Assembly: GCA_016788785.1 (NCBI GenBank)
Contig: JAEUSM010000017.1
Location: 248,001-312,000, forward strand
From: Candidatus Kapaibacterium sp.
GTDB lineage: Bacteria; Bacteroidota; Ignavibacteria; Kapaibacteriales; JAEUSM01
Direction: 5' to 3'
Length of the DNA stretch: 64,000 bases
Shown: positions 8,175 through 54,520 of the stretch, piece by piece
Layout: the number at the start of each line of letters is the position of its first letter
Numbering within the stretch: the first letter of the stretch is position 1
Notes under the pieces: generated by a model
Databases searched by the model: none
Told to the model about the DNA's origin: nothing
Seen by the model: only the letters and a program-made list of their open reading frames with translations
Translations under genes and position numbers: made by a program

Positions 8175-9083
8175 ATGATAGATATAACACATAAAAATAC
8201 TACTCTTAGAATTGCAATTGCTCAAGCTATTGTCGTGGTAAGCAAACAAGAAACCATTTCTGCTCTCATTAATAAAACTGTTCCAAAAGGAGATGTTTTT
8301 GAAATGGCAAAAACAGCAGGTTTATTTGCTGCAAAAAAAACTTCAGAAATAATTCCAGATTGTCACCCATTGCCTATTGAATATACTAAAATCGATTATA
8401 CAATTAACGGGTTAGAAGTTGCTATAACAGTTGAGATAAAAACTATTTACAAAACTGGCGTTGAAGTTGAAGCAATGCATGCTGCCTCTGTTGTTGCTCT
8501 TACTTTTTATGATATGTTAAAGCCTATTGACAAACATATTGAAATTAAAAATATAAAACTACTTCAAAAACAAGGTGGTAAATCCGATAAACTTGATCAG
8601 TTTACTACTAAAATAAAAGCAGCAGTCTTAGTATGTTCGGATAGTATTTCTAATGGGAAGAAACAAGATTCATCAGGCAAAATAATTGTAGATAAACTGA
8701 AAAAATTTCCAGTTGACGTTTGTAATTATGATATTATTCCAGATGAAGTTGAAATAATACAAACAAAAATTGGAGAATATACTTCAAATCAAATCGAACT
8801 AATAATTGTAACCGGTGGAACAGGTTTATCGAAAAGAGATTTTACACCTGAGGCAATTTCACCACTATTAGATAGATTAATACCCGGTATAGGTGAATAT
8901 ATACGACAATATGGTCAAAATAGAATGCCTTACTCTATATTATCAAGAAGTATCGCAGGTTTAATTGGAAATACTTTAGTTATCACTTTACCTGGGTCAA
9001 CAAAAGGTGCAGAGGAATCAATGGACGCCCTTTTTCCCCATGTGCTTCATGTATTTAAAATGATACATTCTGGAAAACATTAA
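8175..9083 (+). CDS. moaCB: Bifunctional MoaC-MogA/MoaB fusion
   Basis: The 302-residue protein joins two enzymes of the pathway. Residues 1 to about 140 are cyclic pyranopterin monophosphate synthase MoaC (K-G-D-V-F near residue 38, C-H-P-L-P-I near 61, E-V-E-A-M-H-A-A-S-V near residue 97). Residues about 150-302 are a molybdopterin adenylyltransferase domain of the MogA/MoaB type (V-T-G-G-T-G-L-S-K-R-D and L-P-G-S-T-K-G-A). It thus covers the second step and the adenylylation that precedes MoeA. Such fusions are known in Bacteroidota. It ends the operon; two hairpins with T-runs follow. Confidence 0.93.
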   Translation: MIDITHKNTTLRIAIAQAIVVVSKQETISALINKTVPKGDVFEMAKTAGLFAAKKTSEIIPDCHPLPIEYTKIDYTINGLEVAITVEIKTIYKTGVEVEAMHAASVVALTFYDMLKPIDKHIEIKNIKLLQKQGGKSDKLDQFTTKIKAAVLVCSDSISNGKKQDSSGKIIVDKLKKFPVDVCNYDIIPDEVEIIQTKIGEYTSNQIELIIVTGGTGLSKRDFTPEAISPLLDRLIPGIGEYIRQYGQNRMPYSILSRSIAGLIGNTLVITLPGSTKGAEESMDALFPHVLHVFKMIHSGKH

Positions 9084-38912: not shown

Positions 38913-38930
38913 ATACAAAATACTTTCAAC

Positions 38931-38958
38931 AAAAAAGGCGGTTTAAAACCGCCTTTTT
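38931..38958. terminator. Bidirectional terminator between gcvP and cassette copy 1
   Basis: The stem AAAAAAGGCGGTTT / AAACCGCCTTTTTT is followed by ATGCTATTT. The same hairpin and the same trailing ATGCTATTT recur at 43955-43993 next to the other copy of the two-gene cassette. Confidence 0.9.
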
Positions 38959-38975
38959 TTATGCTATTTTCTTAC

Positions 38976-40472
38976 TTATTTAGTAAGAACAAACGAGGTT
39001 GTTACTTTCTCTTTGTCACCAAATGATAGATAATAGAACCCACTTGGTAATGCAGATACATCGATATTCGAGCGAGAAGTATAATTTTGTATTTTCATCA
39101 CCTCTTGGCCATAGATATTCGAGATTGTTGCTGACCCTACCTTCAAATCTGGAGTATTTACAAAAATCACACCTGCACTTGGATTTGGAGAAACAACGAT
39201 ATGTTGTTGTTTTGGTTTATCTTGTACAGACAAAGGAATACCAGAATACGAAGCAGTGTACATATAATCAAATGGACCACTGGTGATATCCAAGCCAGTT
39301 GCAACAATAGTTCCATTTGATGTAGCCGTTACTGCTAAAAATCTACCTAATCTATCATTTTCATCAAAAGAAAAAGTATCCTTAGTTACTAAAGAAAACC
39401 CCTTGATTGTAGGTCGAAAAATAGTATTTGATTGAATCGTCTCTAAGTTTTCACCAGCAAAAATTATAGCACTCGAATCAGATGAAAAGCAAAAATCTCT
39501 TGAAAGAATACTTCTTTCTTTCCCAAAAGGAAAGTCTACAGAAAGTAATTCTCCATTGATATGTATCGTTGCTACAAATGGATGATACTTTCTAAAACCG
39601 CTTAGTGAGTTTCCGCAAACATAGATTCTGTCATTTTTTAGTAACATTTTTCTTACAAGCAATGCGTGGTTTGGAACACCCACATCACTTGAAGTAAATG
39701 TATATAATTCATTGCCGACCAAACTATTTGTTGTGTCTTCAAACATACTTAAGTCGCTTTTAGAAACTACAAAGAAATTTGGTTGTACTCCTTCTTGATT
39801 ATATCCAAAAAGATGAAAGAGTGAGTTAGAAACTCTATAAATTTTAGTATCCCACAAGGAATAAAATGGAGAAGCTTTATCAAAAATATTAATAGTATCT
39901 GAAAAGAATTTTCTACTGAATTGGTCGAAAGAACTAACTTCAATTTGACTATAATAGTCATTGTTTCCTGAAGAAAATAAGTTATAGTTGTTGTCTAATA
40001 ATTTGTTGTCTTTTAACTTACTAATAAACGTGGGTATTTTAATTGTACTACTATTTTGAGATGGAAATGTTCCTTGTGCAGTTCCAATATTATTTAAAAA
40101 CTTTAGAAAAAGTAAAGTACCACTCCAATCCTTTTTTGTAGATGTTCGCATTGAAAGAAGCTGATAATTATTTTCTTCTTTATTGTACTCCAAAGTACCA
40201 AAGTTGTTAGGACGTCTTTCTTGAAATTGTACAGGATAAGTGTAACTATGCCTATTCCATTCTATTTCACCATTTTTAGTATATTTTATCATATACGTAA
40301 ACGCAGAATCAGAATCTAAGGAAATACAGACATTTCCATCTACATCGGATGCTATCATTGTACCCCAAACTCTTTGAGCAGTGTCTTTATATTCCACACT
40401 CCAGTTTCTTTGTAAGTTTTGAGCAGATACAAATGAAAATGAAAAAAATAATAAAATTAATAGACTTTTCAT
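38976..40472 (-). CDS. T9SS-secreted cassette protein, copy 1 (paralog of 42463-43947)
   Basis: The protein is 498 residues from ATG 40472, which begins a signal peptide (K-S-L-L-I-L-L-F-F-S-F-S-F-V-S-A-Q); the frame continues upstream inside the neighbouring gene. The mature start Q-N-L-Q-R-N-W-S-V-E-Y is shared with the paralog. It ends in a type A T9SS sorting domain (V-S-P-N-P-S-A-G...G-F-Y-Y-L-S-F-G-D). Before that lies a block nearly identical to the paralog (T-K-D-T-F-S-F-D-E-N-D-R-L-G-R-F). The start is one base after the stop of the cysteine-rich gene, so the two are translated together. No recognised enzymatic motif; the fold before the sorting domain looks beta-rich, possibly a propeller. 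Confidence 0.85.
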   Translation of the reverse strand: MKSLLILLFFSFSFVSAQNLQRNWSVEYKDTAQRVWGTMIASDVDGNVCISLDSDSAFTYMIKYTKNGEIEWNRHSYTYPVQFQERRPNNFGTLEYNKEENNYQLLSMRTSTKKDWSGTLLFLKFLNNIGTAQGTFPSQNSSTIKIPTFISKLKDNKLLDNNYNLFSSGNNDYYSQIEVSSFDQFSRKFFSDTINIFDKASPFYSLWDTKIYRVSNSLFHLFGYNQEGVQPNFFVVSKSDLSMFEDTTNSLVGNELYTFTSSDVGVPNHALLVRKMLLKNDRIYVCGNSLSGFRKYHPFVATIHINGELLSVDFPFGKERSILSRDFCFSSDSSAIIFAGENLETIQSNTIFRPTIKGFSLVTKDTFSFDENDRLGRFLAVTATSNGTIVATGLDITSGPFDYMYTASYSGIPLSVQDKPKQQHIVVSPNPSAGVIFVNTPDLKVGSATISNIYGQEVMKIQNYTSRSNIDVSALPSGFYYLSFGDKEKVTTSFVLTK

Positions 40473-40473
40473 G

Positions 40474-41298
40474 TTAATTCGACTCCGGGCAAGTAAACTC
40501 ACAATTTCCACTATAAGTACTAAGAACTGTATGACCAGCAGCTGAAAAAATAGGACATACTGGAGGCGTTTTAGTGATACATTCTGTTCCATTAATACCA
40601 TGATTTACTGATTGCCCATTTAAAAATACAGCTTTATTTGTATTTCTATCGATACAATAATAATGAATCATGCTACAACAATTATTTTCAACACAATCTA
40701 AATATTTATGACCAATAATATATTTTGTAGGATCATTGTTGTCTTGTAAATATGCGGTACATACAGACATACAAGCACCTGTTAAAATTCCTTGCTGCCA
40801 AAGACCATAATGGTCATTAGGAGTTCCGTCAGGCTTAGTACAGTACCATTTTTCTTTATCATTTGGAGTTACTTCTCGAGCAAAGGTTTCTTCTAGTAAA
40901 AGTCCCAAGATGCTTTTTTGAATTTGACCATACAATTGCCTTAAGAAAATTTCATTAGGTGGTCCATTTACTCCAAAAGGATAGATTTGCATTAATAAAT
41001 TCTGACAACCTCCCATATACTGAATATTGCTAATTTTAATTATACTTAAATAAGGAGCACAGTCGTTTGCTAATTCAAATTCTACTTTAGCATAACAGAA
41101 AGGATAACCTGGTACAGGGATTATTTTTGTCTCAGTTCTCCAGTTTGGCGTACCTATGCAATACGTATAATGATCACAGCCATGATTTGGTAATTGAGCA
41201 AAAAGTAATCCATTAGAACTAAATAAAAAACACACAATAACTAAGAATAGAATCCCACTTATAGATAGATGGTTTAACGTAAAAAAACAATTAGACAT
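40474..41298 (-). CDS. Secreted 16-cysteine protein, copy 1 (paralog of 41646-42461)
   Basis: The 274-residue protein starts at ATG 41298, preceded by a strong AAGGAG seven bases upstream. A signal peptide spans about residues 1-34. The mature chain begins L-P-N-H-G-C-D-H and has sixteen cysteines, all matched in the paralog: G-C-D-H, P-G-Y-P-F-C, G-G-C-Q-N, G-A-C-M-S-V-C, C-V-E-N-N-C-C, T-C-P-E at the end, and others. This suggests eight disulfides. There is no T9SS sorting domain, so it may stay periplasmic or bind its T9SS neighbour. I do not recognise the family. Confidence 0.75.
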   Translation of the reverse strand: MSNCFFTLNHLSISGILFLVIVCFLFSSNGLLFAQLPNHGCDHYTYCIGTPNWRTETKIIPVPGYPFCYAKVEFELANDCAPYLSIIKISNIQYMGGCQNLLMQIYPFGVNGPPNEIFLRQLYGQIQKSILGLLLEETFAREVTPNDKEKWYCTKPDGTPNDHYGLWQQGILTGACMSVCTAYLQDNNDPTKYIIGHKYLDCVENNCCSMIHYYCIDRNTNKAVFLNGQSVNHGINGTECITKTPPVCPIFSAAGHTVLSTYSGNCEFTCPESN

Positions 41299-41645
41299 AA
41301 CTAGACTCCTTATAATAATAATTAACATATTCAACTTAAACGACATGATTTAATCTTTATTTTATATTTCTAATTTAAACTATATGTTTTATCGATGCAA
41401 TTATTCATATGTGATTTACTATAGTTTTTATTAAGTTTCTTTACTACTTTCAATAAAATCTGAAGCTATATACTACAAGAATGTTTTGTTAACGCAATCA
41501 ACAAACACTAAGATAAATATTAGTAATTGTAGAATTTTAACTTTGGCCAAGCAATAATTTTATTGTTAATATATTGTTTATTACAATATGCGATCCTTGC
41601 TGACGTTTGAATAGGTATGTTTTTTTAATTTTGAAAAGGTGTTTT
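41299..41645. promoter_or_regulatory. Divergent promoter region at the centre of the inverted cassette pair
   Basis: This 347-base, very AT-rich gap separates the two head-to-head copies. It holds the AAGGAG ribosome-binding site of copy 1 (complement of 41306-41311) and A-A-A-A-G-G-T-G before copy 2. I see no gene and no long inverted repeat, so the two arms are not mirror images at DNA level in this centre. Each copy presumably has its own promoter here. Confidence 0.5.
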
Positions 41646-42461
41646 ATGAAATTTCAGTTTATTTACAATTTTAGATTTGTAATAACTAATGTGTTCGTTT
41701 GCAGTATATTTCTGCTATTGTTCATTTCTATGAATAATTATTTGTACTCACAAATAGAAAATCATGGATGCGATCATAATAATTGGTGTCCAAATGGCAC
41801 CAAAACTACAGAAACAAGGATTGTTCCTGTACCAGGATATCCTTTTTGTTTTGCGAAAGTAGAATTTGAACTTACTAGATGTGAACAATTTTCTAGTGTA
41901 GTTGTGGTTAAATCCATTAATTACTTAGGAGGGTGTACTAATCTTTTAACTCAAATGTACCCCTTAGGTTTAAATGCACCACCTGATGAAATATTTATGA
42001 GACAAATGTGGGGTCAAATACAAGTAAATATCTTATCATTAGCATTTGAGGAATTTTTTAATAGTATAACAGATCCTGTAATAAAAGATACATATTATTG
42101 TACAAATCCTGATGGAACCCCAAGAAATTCTTCTACATATACACAACAAGTTTTAATTAATGGAGCATGTTTGTCATTATGCACAGCCCTTTTACAAGAC
42201 ATTAACACCTCTGAGTATGTAGTTGCTCAGAGGTATCAAGATTGTCTTGAAAATAATTGTTGTATAATGTATTATACGTATTGCATTAATAGAAATACAA
42301 ATAAGGCTGTTAGAACAACTCCTGTTGTTAATACCGGAGTTTGGGAAAGTCAATGTACCAATACTGCACCACCAGATTGTCCGTCTTTTGTAACTTCTAA
42401 TTATAATGTAATAAGCACTTTTAGTGGTACATGTAAATTTACTTGTCAAGAAGAAGATTAA
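41646..42461 (+). CDS. Secreted 16-cysteine protein, copy 2 (paralog of 40474-41298)
   Basis: The 271-residue protein starts at ATG 41646 (preceded by A-A-A-A-G-G-T-G); an in-frame TTG lies 13 codons upstream. A long signal peptide spans about residues 1-36, ending L-Y-S-Q. The mature part begins I-E-N-H-G-C-D-H and follows copy 1 throughout: P-V-P-G-Y-P-F-C-F-A-K-V-E-F-E-L, Y-L-G-G-C-T-N-L-L-T-Q-M-Y-P, N-P-D-G-T-P, C-L-E-N-N-C-C, N-R-N-T-N-K-A-V. All sixteen mature cysteines align. The stop is one base before the T9SS partner gene. Family not recognised; the conserved cysteines point to a rigid extracytoplasmic fold. Confidence 0.75.
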   Translation: MKFQFIYNFRFVITNVFVCSIFLLLFISMNNYLYSQIENHGCDHNNWCPNGTKTTETRIVPVPGYPFCFAKVEFELTRCEQFSSVVVVKSINYLGGCTNLLTQMYPLGLNAPPDEIFMRQMWGQIQVNILSLAFEEFFNSITDPVIKDTYYCTNPDGTPRNSSTYTQQVLINGACLSLCTALLQDINTSEYVVAQRYQDCLENNCCIMYYTYCINRNTNKAVRTTPVVNTGVWESQCTNTAPPDCPSFVTSNYNVISTFSGTCKFTCQEED

Positions 42462-42462
42462 A

Positions 42463-43947
42463 ATGTATAATCTTATAATTGTATTTCTCATAACTTTTTC
42501 TACTCTATCCTCCCAAACCTTACAACGTAATTGGGGAGTAGAATATAATGATTCTGTACAGAAAGTGTTTGGAAGAATGATAGCATCAGATATTGATGGA
42601 AACGTTTGTCTTTCTATAAGTTCAGACTCTTCGTATACATATATTCTCAAGTATACCAAAAATGGAGAAATAGAATGGATTAGGAATAGTTATGATTACC
42701 CAGAGCTATTTAGAATAGGATATCTAAGTAGCATGGGTCAATTTGACTATGATAGTCAAAACGATGTTTTTCATCTTGTTTCAATAAGACCTAGTAGTTT
42801 TGGAAGTCCTTATGGTAAACTGTTATCACTTACCTTTCAAAATAAAACTGGTATATCACAAGGTTTTTCACCAACTGAAAATAGTACCAGTTTGTTGATG
42901 CCGAGTGTTTTACGAAAAGCTAATGATAATTTATTTTACGATAACAAACTACTCTTTAATCATGTAGATAAACAAGGCTGGATATTTATAAGTTCTTATG
43001 ATAAATTTAGCAGATTATATACTGTAGATACTATAAATGTTATTGATTCTTTAGTACCTCAATACTCTTTATTTGATACGAAAATCAATCCATCTACAAA
43101 TTCAATGTATCATCTTTTAGGATTGAATATAGATATGGTTGCACAAAGTATGTTTGTTCTTTCAAAAACAAGTATGACATTGGTTGAAGATAGTACTAAT
43201 GAATTTTTAAACAATGATGTGTATGTATTTACATCTTCTGATTTGGGTGTTCCGACTCATGCTCTTTTTGTTAGAAAAATACTACTTAAAGATGATAAAA
43301 TCTATGTATGTGGTATGTCGTTGAGTAAAATTAGGATGTACCATCCCTATGTAGCAACTATTAATAATAATGGTAAATTACTATCAGTAGATTTTCCATT
43401 TGGAACAAAAGGAAGTACTCTTCCAAGAGATTTTTGCTTCTCCTCTGATTCTAGTGCAATAATTCTTGCTGGTGAAAATTATGATTTTATAAATAATTCC
43501 ATTTACCGACCTACTGTTAAAGGTTATTCATTGGTAACAAAGGATACATTTTCGTTTGATGAGAATGACAGATTAGGTAGATTTTTAGCAGTAACAGCTA
43601 CAAGTAATGGAACTATAGTCGCAACAGGTTTAGACCTAACGGGTGGTCCAGATTATTATATGTACACAGCATCGTATTCTGGTATACCGTTATCTGTACA
43701 AGATAAGACGACGAAGCCACAGATAGTTGTAGCTCCAAATCCTACAACTGGAATGATACGTTTAGATGGGCTAAAGGCTATAAACGGAACACTGACAATA
43801 TCAAATATTTATGGTCAAGAACTATTGAAATTGAATGATTATCAAACTTCCTCTTCAATAGATGTTTCGCAATTACCATGTGGATTCTACTTTGTATCGT
43901 ATGGAGATAAGGAAAAGCTTACTACCTCATTTGTTTTGACAAAGTAA
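42463..43947 (+). CDS. T9SS-secreted cassette protein, copy 2 (paralog of 38976-40472)
   Basis: The 494-residue protein starts at ATG 42463 with a signal peptide (Y-N-L-I-I-V-F-L-I-T-F-S-T-L-S-S-Q) and mature start T-L-Q-R-N-W-G-V-E-Y, the counterpart of copy 1. A near-invariant block at about residues 355-415 includes S-L-V-T-K-D-T-F-S-F-D-E-N-D-R-L-G-R-F and Y-T-A-S-Y-S-G-I-P-L-S-V-Q-D-K, followed by a type A T9SS sorting domain. Synonymous sites in this block differ between copies, so the likeness reflects protein constraint rather than a very recent copy. Coupled to the cysteine-rich gene by a one-base gap. Function unknown. Confidence 0.85.
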   Translation: MYNLIIVFLITFSTLSSQTLQRNWGVEYNDSVQKVFGRMIASDIDGNVCLSISSDSSYTYILKYTKNGEIEWIRNSYDYPELFRIGYLSSMGQFDYDSQNDVFHLVSIRPSSFGSPYGKLLSLTFQNKTGISQGFSPTENSTSLLMPSVLRKANDNLFYDNKLLFNHVDKQGWIFISSYDKFSRLYTVDTINVIDSLVPQYSLFDTKINPSTNSMYHLLGLNIDMVAQSMFVLSKTSMTLVEDSTNEFLNNDVYVFTSSDLGVPTHALFVRKILLKDDKIYVCGMSLSKIRMYHPYVATINNNGKLLSVDFPFGTKGSTLPRDFCFSSDSSAIILAGENYDFINNSIYRPTVKGYSLVTKDTFSFDENDRLGRFLAVTATSNGTIVATGLDLTGGPDYYMYTASYSGIPLSVQDKTTKPQIVVAPNPTTGMIRLDGLKAINGTLTISNIYGQELLKLNDYQTSSSIDVSQLPCGFYFVSYGDKEKLTTSFVLTK

Positions 43948-43954
43948 AAGTAAC

Positions 43955-43984
43955 AAAAAAGGCGGTTTTGAACCGCCTTTTTTT
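43955..43984. terminator. Bidirectional terminator after cassette copy 2
   Basis: The stem AAAAAAGGCGGTT / AACCGCCTTTTTT with a three-base loop lies seven bases past the copy 2 stop and abuts the stop of the convergent peroxiredoxin-like gene. The trailing ATGCTATTT repeats the sequence at 38951-38969. Confidence 0.9.
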
Positions 43985-44525
43985 ATGCTATTTGCTTTTG
44001 TTGTAATTTGAGGATGGAAGGAATTTTTGCAAAGTCTGGATGATCACCAATGTGTTTGAAGTGATGCTTCCACAAAATTGTGTCTGTTTCTACATAAAAC
44101 ATTCCAGGCATTACCAATGGGTCTCCGACGGGTTTACCGACGAAATTTCCTTTTGCGACTGCACGAAATCCACACGCTACAACGCTTGGTCCCAGTAACT
44201 CATTGAACGAACCTCGCTCGACTCCAAATTCAGAATACAACGTTTTGCTAGGGTCAGAAATAGCAGGAACTTCATCCCAAAATTTGCGGAAAAAGGTATC
44301 CCCCTCTTCAACGCTTCCCATGTGAACAAACATCACGTTCGGAAAATTGGGGATAGTTTTTGTTGCATTTTTCAAATCTTTGATATTTTCACGACAAAAG
44401 ACACATCCAAAATGTCGCAAAAACACAACAAATTTGGGTTCACGAATGAGCTCAGAAAAGTGTGAACCTTGTTCGAAATTTCTCCCATACATTGGAGTTG
44501 AAAGTATTGCTGGTGATAGTACCAC
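43983..44525 (-). CDS. Peroxiredoxin-like (AhpC/TSA, PRXL2-type) protein
   Basis: The 180-residue protein has a thioredoxin-fold core with V-V-F-L-R-H-F-G-C-V-F-C-R near residue 40, the C-x-x-C pattern of the AhpC/TSA-related PRXL2 group. The frame is open further upstream into ligA. GTG 44525 lies one base past the ligA stop and gives the N-terminus L-S-P-A-I-L-S-T-P-M-Y; ATG 44492, 11 codons later, is an alternative. Coupling to ligA is likely, given the one-base gap. The role is probably reduction of peroxides or redox signalling; the substrate is unknown. Confidence 0.8.
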   Translation of the reverse strand: MVLSPAILSTPMYGRNFEQGSHFSELIREPKFVVFLRHFGCVFCRENIKDLKNATKTIPNFPNVMFVHMGSVEEGDTFFRKFWDEVPAISDPSKTLYSEFGVERGSFNELLGPSVVACGFRAVAKGNFVGKPVGDPLVMPGMFYVETDTILWKHHFKHIGDHPDFAKIPSILKLQQKQIA

Positions 44526-44526
44526 G

Positions 44527-46882
<2,356 letters not shown>

Positions 46883-52996: not shown

Positions 52997-54520
52997 TTAT
53001 CGTTCAATTATAAAGGATTTTGAGTGTACATCATTTTTCTTACTTCGTAAAGTCAAGACATAACTCCCTGATGGGAGATTGCTTACAGATAGTTGGATTG
53101 CATTTTCAGAGCTATTTTCGGATAATTTCTGCAAGAACATAACCTTCCCGTCTATCGAAAGAATCTCTATAATCTTAGGGTTGTCTAATGTTTTTGAAAA
53201 GCGTACTGTAATGAAATCCTTTGATGGATTAGGATAAATTGAAATTGTAGAATTATCCTCTTGATTCTGTGATTCTTTCACAGAAACTGGCACTAATAAC
53301 CGAATATTCGCAACGTACAGATTATCATTTATTCCACCGGTAATATATACTGAGTCAATGATATCTGCATATACATCACCCAATCGATCATTGCTATCTG
53401 CTTGACCCCAAATAGTTTCAGTATATTCTCTTGTTTTAGCGTTGAAATTCGCAATATAAAAGTCTAAAGAATTTGGATTTTGTTCCTCTGTTCTTCCTCC
53501 CACCAAAAGTACTGAAGAGTTATCTTTGGAAATTGCCGAAGAAATCAATTTAGTATCCTTTGGTATTACAGAATGCCTCACTTTATTACCTTGTTCATCA
53601 AAATAACAAACAAATGGAAACATCATTCCCTGATGGCGAACGGAGCCTGTAACGACAACTTCATTTGCTACATGATGGATAGCGAGTGGAAATAAAGTGT
53701 CATTTGGATATCCAAGTTGATTTGGATGTAATAACTTTGATACTGTTTCAGAATAGGTCGTATCAAAATAGCGTATTTCAAATTGATTGTTTGGTATAAT
53801 TTTCTGATTTTCGTAATTACCAATTACTAAAGCGTACAAATTTCTGGTAGAATTGAGTTCGCAATAAATTGATTTCCAGTTTCTGTTTGCACATTTTGAT
53901 AATAGGTAAGATTTTGGAGCTTTAGGTTTATCAGATGCATCAAATGGCTGTGAAAAAATGATTGGTACATGATCAGCACTATGATAATCTTTTCCAATTG
54001 TAATAATACCTTTTTCCTTTTCAGCAATACAATACAATTCATATTCATTTGGAAGGTTTGGAATTCTGTTGTTTGAAAAGTCTGCTCCTTTACAGTCCAC
54101 ACAAAATACCTCTGTAGCATAAGCATTATCGGATTTTCTTAGTTGAAGTATTTCAGCTACTTTTTGATTGTCATGAATACCAAAATATAATAAGGTTGTA
54201 TTCTTTCTTTTCAAAGAATCTGCTAAAAATGGAATTGAATTTACATTGTACGTAGAATTATCGTGATTTATAAAAAAATATGGATTTACATATTTATTTG
54301 TTTCTAAGATAACTGAAGTTACGTTATTTGCATTTGTAGATGGTCTTATTATAGCTCCAAATAACTTATTAAAGTATGTAGTATCAACCCAATGTGGATC
54401 GATATTGCTGAATTTTGTCGTATTGGAAATTGAGTACTCCCAATTGAATTGGGGTTGTGAAAAACAAATTCCAACGGAAAAAATGAAAATTTGTATAGAA
54501 ATAGTCAAAAACTGTTTCAT
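52997..54520 (-). CDS. T9SS-secreted protein, distant relative of the cassette T9SS proteins
   Basis: The 507-residue protein has a signal peptide (K-Q-F-L-T-I-S-I-Q-I-F-I-F-S-V-G-I-C-F-S) and a type A T9SS sorting domain at the end (I-S-I-Y-P-N-P-S-K-D...G-S-Y-V-L-T-L). Its mature start F-N-W-E-Y and a segment W-G-Q-A-D-S-N-D-R-L-G before the sorting domain recall the cassette proteins at 38976 and 42463 (R-N-W-x-V-E-Y and D-E-N-D-R-L-G), at much lower similarity. It is not accompanied by a cysteine-rich gene. Function unknown. Confidence 0.82.
   Translation of the reverse strand: MKQFLTISIQIFIFSVGICFSQPQFNWEYSISNTTKFSNIDPHWVDTTYFNKLFGAIIRPSTNANNVTSVILETNKYVNPYFFINHDNSTYNVNSIPFLADSLKRKNTTLLYFGIHDNQKVAEILQLRKSDNAYATEVFCVDCKGADFSNNRIPNLPNEYELYCIAEKEKGIITIGKDYHSADHVPIIFSQPFDASDKPKAPKSYLLSKCANRNWKSIYCELNSTRNLYALVIGNYENQKIIPNNQFEIRYFDTTYSETVSKLLHPNQLGYPNDTLFPLAIHHVANEVVVTGSVRHQGMMFPFVCYFDEQGNKVRHSVIPKDTKLISSAISKDNSSVLLVGGRTEEQNPNSLDFYIANFNAKTREYTETIWGQADSNDRLGDVYADIIDSVYITGGINDNLYVANIRLLVPVSVKESQNQEDNSTISIYPNPSKDFITVRFSKTLDNPKIIEILSIDGKVMFLQKLSENSSENAIQLSVSNLPSGSYVLTLRSKKNDVHSKSFIIER

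Follow-up and report, generated by a model that had tools for sequence, protein, structure and literature searches.

A cysteine-rich secreted protein family and its operon partners with type IX sorting domains in Candidatus Kapabacteria

The locus described here carries two paralogous copies of a conserved two-gene operon, which sequence comparison shows to have been co-duplicated as one unit. The first gene encodes a predicted secreted protein whose family, marked by 14 conserved cysteines, is undescribed, and the second encodes a partner that bears a type A sorting domain (CTD) of the type IX system (T9SS). Our main reading, to which we give a probability of about 0.5, is that the disulfide-rich protein without a CTD would form a complex with its CTD-bearing partner and reach the surface together with it. 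The window, meaning the whole stretch of DNA that was analysed, is 64,000 nt long (contig C15, positions 248001-312000) and belongs to a genome of 2.97 Mb in 18 contigs (G000).

The first-pass annotation had described two two-gene units of the same order, placed head to head around a common centre, and the open reading frames listed in Table 1 bear this out. It had also pointed to a gap of a single base between the stop codon and the next start, which we find in both units (TAAcATG on the left and TAAaATG on the right). Within the window, inverted-repeat blocks of up to 298 nt with 74-83% identity confirm the inverted layout of the arms. The locus lies deep within a 493-kb contig, and the strong divergence of the arms makes an assembly artefact unlikely. 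A promoter scan of the locus returned 29 promoter-like sites, no excess over the 29.2 expected from shuffles. Elsewhere in the window (8175-9083, plus strand), an open reading frame resembles, by eye, a fusion of MoaC-like and MogA/MoaB-like molybdenum-cofactor proteins.

Table 1 Features of the locus (window coordinates)
Feature	Coordinates	Strand	Remarks
Cysteine-rich secreted protein, left copy	40474..41298	-	274 aa; 16 cysteines past the signal region; without CTD
T9SS type A CTD-bearing partner, left copy	38976..40472	-	498 aa; PF18962 36.5 bits, above cut-off
Cysteine-rich secreted protein, right copy	41646..42461	+	271 aa; 16 cysteines past the signal region; without CTD
T9SS type A CTD-bearing partner, right copy	42463..43947	+	494 aa; PF18962 34.7 bits, above cut-off
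Divergent intergenic centre	41299..41645	.	347 bp, 22.5% GC; both promoters presumed here
Bidirectional hairpin terminator between gcvP (+) and left unit (-)	38931..38959	.	
Bidirectional hairpin terminator between right unit (+) and gene 43983-44621 (-)	43955..43983	.	
Flanking direct repeat, left copy	38928..38973	+	hairpin plus TTATGCTATTTTCTT
Flanking direct repeat, right copy	43952..43997	+	last part is the 3' coding end of gene 43983-44621

The arms had been annotated as old and maintained, and their divergence (dS about 1.4-1.65) and the purifying selection on both copies (dN/dS about 0.22-0.25) agree with this. In particular, the left and right first genes are 49% identical, with the post-signal cysteines in the same order, and codon comparison of the two copies gave a dS of 1.65 and a dN/dS of 0.25. 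The second genes are 58% identical, collinear over their whole length, and gave values of 1.43 and 0.22, respectively. The similar dS and the low dN/dS in both genes indicate that the unit was duplicated whole, long ago, and that both copies were kept under selection. The further proposal that the head-to-head arrangement is itself a system finds no support: the units diverge here only, the other multi-copy loci (in G007, G115, G003 and G083) are tandem, and no second divergent pair was found among the surveyed loci. The layout is an ordinary result of local duplication, not the system itself. Such a duplication would have left two diverged versions of the unit read outward from one centre, and separate promoters for the two versions are one possible consequence.

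As annotated, each unit ends in nearly the same hairpin (AAAGGCGGTTnnnAACCGCCTTT), and these two sites are the only ones in the 2.97-Mb genome, which rules out a common genome-wide terminator. Nor do the hairpins mirror each other as the ends of an inverted duplication would, since the repeats that contain them are direct rather than inverted. These repeats are identical at 43 of 46 positions and far more alike than the arms. Both contain TTATGCTATTTnCTT beyond the hairpin; the right copy of this tail is the 3' coding end of gene 43983-44621, whose product we take by eye to be peroxiredoxin-like, and the left copy is non-coding. Flanks free of selection should have drifted further apart by the time the arms reached their synonymous divergence (pS about 0.65), and we infer that an old pair was placed between gcvP and gene 43983-44621 later, with a short site duplication. 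The 46-bp repeat pair resembles a site duplication in which the tail of the neighbouring gene was duplicated; no recombinase lies nearby. A gene like 43983-44621 occurs in three relatives, with no gcvP or ligA within 1.5 kb of it, and an uninterrupted junction of gcvP with such a gene was not found in them. A small mobile element of 5 kb, bounded by direct repeats of about 46 bp and carrying both units, is a very improbable explanation of the pair. End repeats that are direct, unique in the genome and matched far above arm identity are what such an element would leave, but no transposase or integrase reading frame is present in 38.9-44.0 kb and the three relatives offer no empty site for comparison.

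Neither first gene of the window matches Pfam or NCBIfam, and a contig scan with the two cysteine-rich copies as query found no relative. A profile of 27 members contains 10 invariant and 4 nearly invariant cysteines; family members have no convincing Pfam match and none in PADLOC, and the profile has no match in the PDB. Searching with this profile, we detected the family in 61 of the 123 genomes and 35 of the 51 genera of the order (Candidatus Kapabacteria). In a phylum sample of 396 genomes the family is confined to this order, and in a class sample of 391 genomes it is also present in G491, G500 and, weakly, G511, all outside the order. The T9SS CTD is absent from the window's first genes themselves, and the same genome holds two further copies without it (L016 and L017), each followed by a same-strand gene for a CTD protein. 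In the C1 unit (L016:2885-5760) the partner gene is split by a frameshift, either through real decay or through an assembly error. Repeats of the TGAATCAGGATT type border this unit on either side; their core occurs in 8 copies in 10 kb and not in the window. AlphaFold2 single-chain models of both window proteins, made from alignments of the window sequences only, were poor (pLDDT 47.7 and 39.5).

The second genes of the window score above the Pfam cut-off of 27 for PF18962 and, with 36.8 and 32.6, above the NCBIfam cut-off of 23 for TIGR04183. A hydrophobic N-terminal segment is present in 60 of 61 partners by a simple hydropathy test, which is not a signal-peptide predictor. The translocon component SprA is encoded in the same genome (TIGR04189, E = 5e-203) and in 122 of the 123 genomes of the order. 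A single partner family is ruled out, as profile comparison leaves several groups unlinked. The window partners belong to the largest group, which comprises 21 of the compared sequences and includes the G007 partners; a second group (n = 11) consists of BNR/Ycf48-type propellers where tested, and the remaining partners form small groups with no similarity detectable by profile comparison. Since the partner groups vary, the cysteine-rich gene is the constant element of the unit and the propeller-like CTD protein the variable one. Against the PDB, the profile of the window's group matched a repeated part of CylK (7fh8 and others; E about 1e-13) as well as known CTD structures, and on this basis the window partner is probably a beta-propeller. 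The likeness to CylK, although in keeping with a beta-propeller, concerns that part only and the family profile only rather than the window protein alone, and there is no sign of CylK enzyme activity. Another T9SS protein of the window (52997-54520, minus strand) has about 22% identity to the partners and no cysteine-rich gene beside it. The partners in genus g11 (L084:7399-8796, L130, L135 and L153) end in a cysteine-containing tail, CSxGCYHSRLLL, that the CTD profiles missed.

For the surveyed loci, genes were called mechanically and CTDs were detected with an HMM built here, which overlooks tails that have diverged; owing to the relatedness of the genomes, the counts are not independent. 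A downstream gene could be read for 68 CTD-less family members. It shares their strand in 66 cases and lies no more than 150 bp away in 59, the median gap being 15 bp. A CTD was detected in 48 of these 68 downstream genes versus 33 of 378 other genes of the same loci (Fisher p about 9e-27, a value that ignores relatedness); on the upstream side, a CTD gene on the same strand was present in only 5 of 55 cases. Counted by genus, a CTD gene is among the next two same-strand genes in 24 of the 27 genera with a readable downstream gene, some of them outside the order; in the three exceptional genera the locus either meets a contig end or has a downstream gene whose C terminus has diverged strongly. 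Gene order in the clade had been set beforehand as the check on the annotated pair, and the two genes are not usually apart. Outside the order there are 6 loci in 3 genomes: a CTD gene lies directly downstream in 4, one downstream gene is cut by the contig end, and one is without a detected CTD, its frame ending near a contig end. The conserved order and the purifying selection thus uphold the earlier claim of an old, maintained unit in which a disulfide-rich secreted protein is paired with a T9SS partner. Many operons include a third gene for a protein of 150-220 aa that consists of little besides a signal region and a T9SS CTD; such small proteins are often encoded by the middle or third gene (for example L085:7809-8306 and L146:6348-6869).

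The same counts bear on the unlikely alternative that the operon joins two co-expressed envelope proteins, for example of a surface adhesin or matrix, that do not interact physically, so that the gene order reflects co-regulation and the CTD-less protein travels by another route. The variable partner domains would fit this explanation, and CTD proteins are common (about 11% of genes near the loci), so some adjacency is expected. However, the observed adjacency is far above that background, occurs downstream only, has very short gaps and is kept across genera, across families and beyond the order.

The CTD is mostly absent from the cysteine-rich proteins but is fused to them in some relatives, with four tandem copies in G007, one in G016, two in G000 and one in G491. 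The fused state requires at least three changes on the family tree, and well-supported branches force at least two of these; further fused members, in G083 and G074, had diverged too far to be placed on this tree. In these lineages the cysteine-rich protein, judged by its own CTD, is itself a predicted T9SS substrate. In G007, five cysteine-rich genes stand in tandem and CTD proteins of about 500 residues lie between them; four of the five cysteine-rich proteins have their own CTD and each of these is preceded by its CTD partner. The window's partner family also stands beside the fused form there, in reversed gene order. The two fused copies of G000 (L128 and L129) are each followed by a gene for a large IgGFc-binding/PKD T9SS protein. 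Contigs C9 and C8 begin at these two loci (L128:1-1945 and L129:1-2077) with sequences that are 93% identical over about 860 bp and run into the fused genes, and the assembly breaks at this repeat. Because the fused members still adjoin a CTD gene, the neighbour is more than a substitute for a missing tag, which tells against our main reading.

Fused CTDs also bear on a second explanation, that the CTD-less cysteine-rich protein is a periplasmic chaperone or escort dedicated to the CTD partner and is not exported. Most family members are CTD-less and lie just upstream of a CTD gene, and the partners vary widely, as the clients of a chaperone could. An own CTD, as in the relatives from G007, G016, G491 and G000, is not expected of a periplasmic chaperone, however; moreover, its 14-16 cysteines look more like structural disulfides than like the active site of an oxidoreductase, and searches linked the protein to no known fold family. 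We consider this role improbable.

The annotation had further listed a toxin-immunity pair, and neither this nor a polymorphic toxin pair is supported; we regard both as highly improbable. Multi-copy, diverged paralogous pairs with variable partners do occur in such systems, but the window proteins gave no hit to a toxin, immunity or defence family (for described defence families, in PADLOC). The weak Tli3 matches seen among partners from other operons coincide with generic BNR propeller repeats, and export tags are fused to the cysteine-rich protein in relatives.

We return to export on the partner's tag. The T9SS carries folded proteins over the outer membrane and requires a folded CTD on the substrate, and proteins without a CTD have served as non-exported references in published controls (PMC9251779, PMC10994853). 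With a Sec signal and no CTD, the disulfide-rich protein would stay in the periplasm unless it were carried. We propose that both gene products would cross the inner membrane by Sec and that the first, with its signal region and, in the window, 16 mature cysteines, would fold with disulfides in the periplasm. It would there bind the second gene product, the probable beta-propeller with a type A sorting domain, and the complex, directed by the partner's CTD, would pass through SprA across the outer membrane, to be displayed or released as a whole. Relatives whose first gene has its own CTD would reach the same destination in cis. As the neighbour nearly always bears a CTD and some relatives are CTD-fused, a complex on the partner's tag is the simplest reading, and we infer a carrier-cargo relationship as the best account of the pair. 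The several dissimilar groups of partner N-terminal domains are harder to fit to one conserved binding interface. A broader claim, that a class-wide disulfide-rich family is exported in trans on the CTD of its operon partner and has switched repeatedly between fused (cis) and partner-borne (trans) tags, is one that we advance tentatively.

Several known systems can be compared with this operon. The second gene resembles T9SS type A substrates (TIGR04183 / PF18962 Por_Secre_tail) in its signal region, its CTD above the curated cut-offs and the presence of SprA, whereas the first gene mostly has no CTD and yet nearly always adjoins a CTD gene. In Tat hitchhiker co-export (Rodrigue et al. 1999, as described in PMC9251779) an untargeted protein crosses with a targeted partner, as would be the case here; unlike that account, the proposed route involves the outer membrane and SprA, the rider has its own Sec signal region, and its co-export is predicted. 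Type B CTD adhesins with SprF/PorP-like partners (SprB-SprF; PMC9143113) likewise place a T9SS substrate beside a dedicated partner gene, but that partner is a PorP-like outer-membrane protein and the CTD is of type B, whereas here the neighbour is disulfide-rich and the CTD of type A. No PorP-like match was found in Pfam or NCBIfam for either type of window protein, and we found no report of T9SS co-export of a CTD-less protein in the open-licence literature.

The analysis defines a new protein family, marked by 14 conserved cysteines, and its strongly conserved operon in a largely uncultured clade. The naturally fused and unfused relatives let one ask whether the type IX system exports a protein that has no tag of its own.
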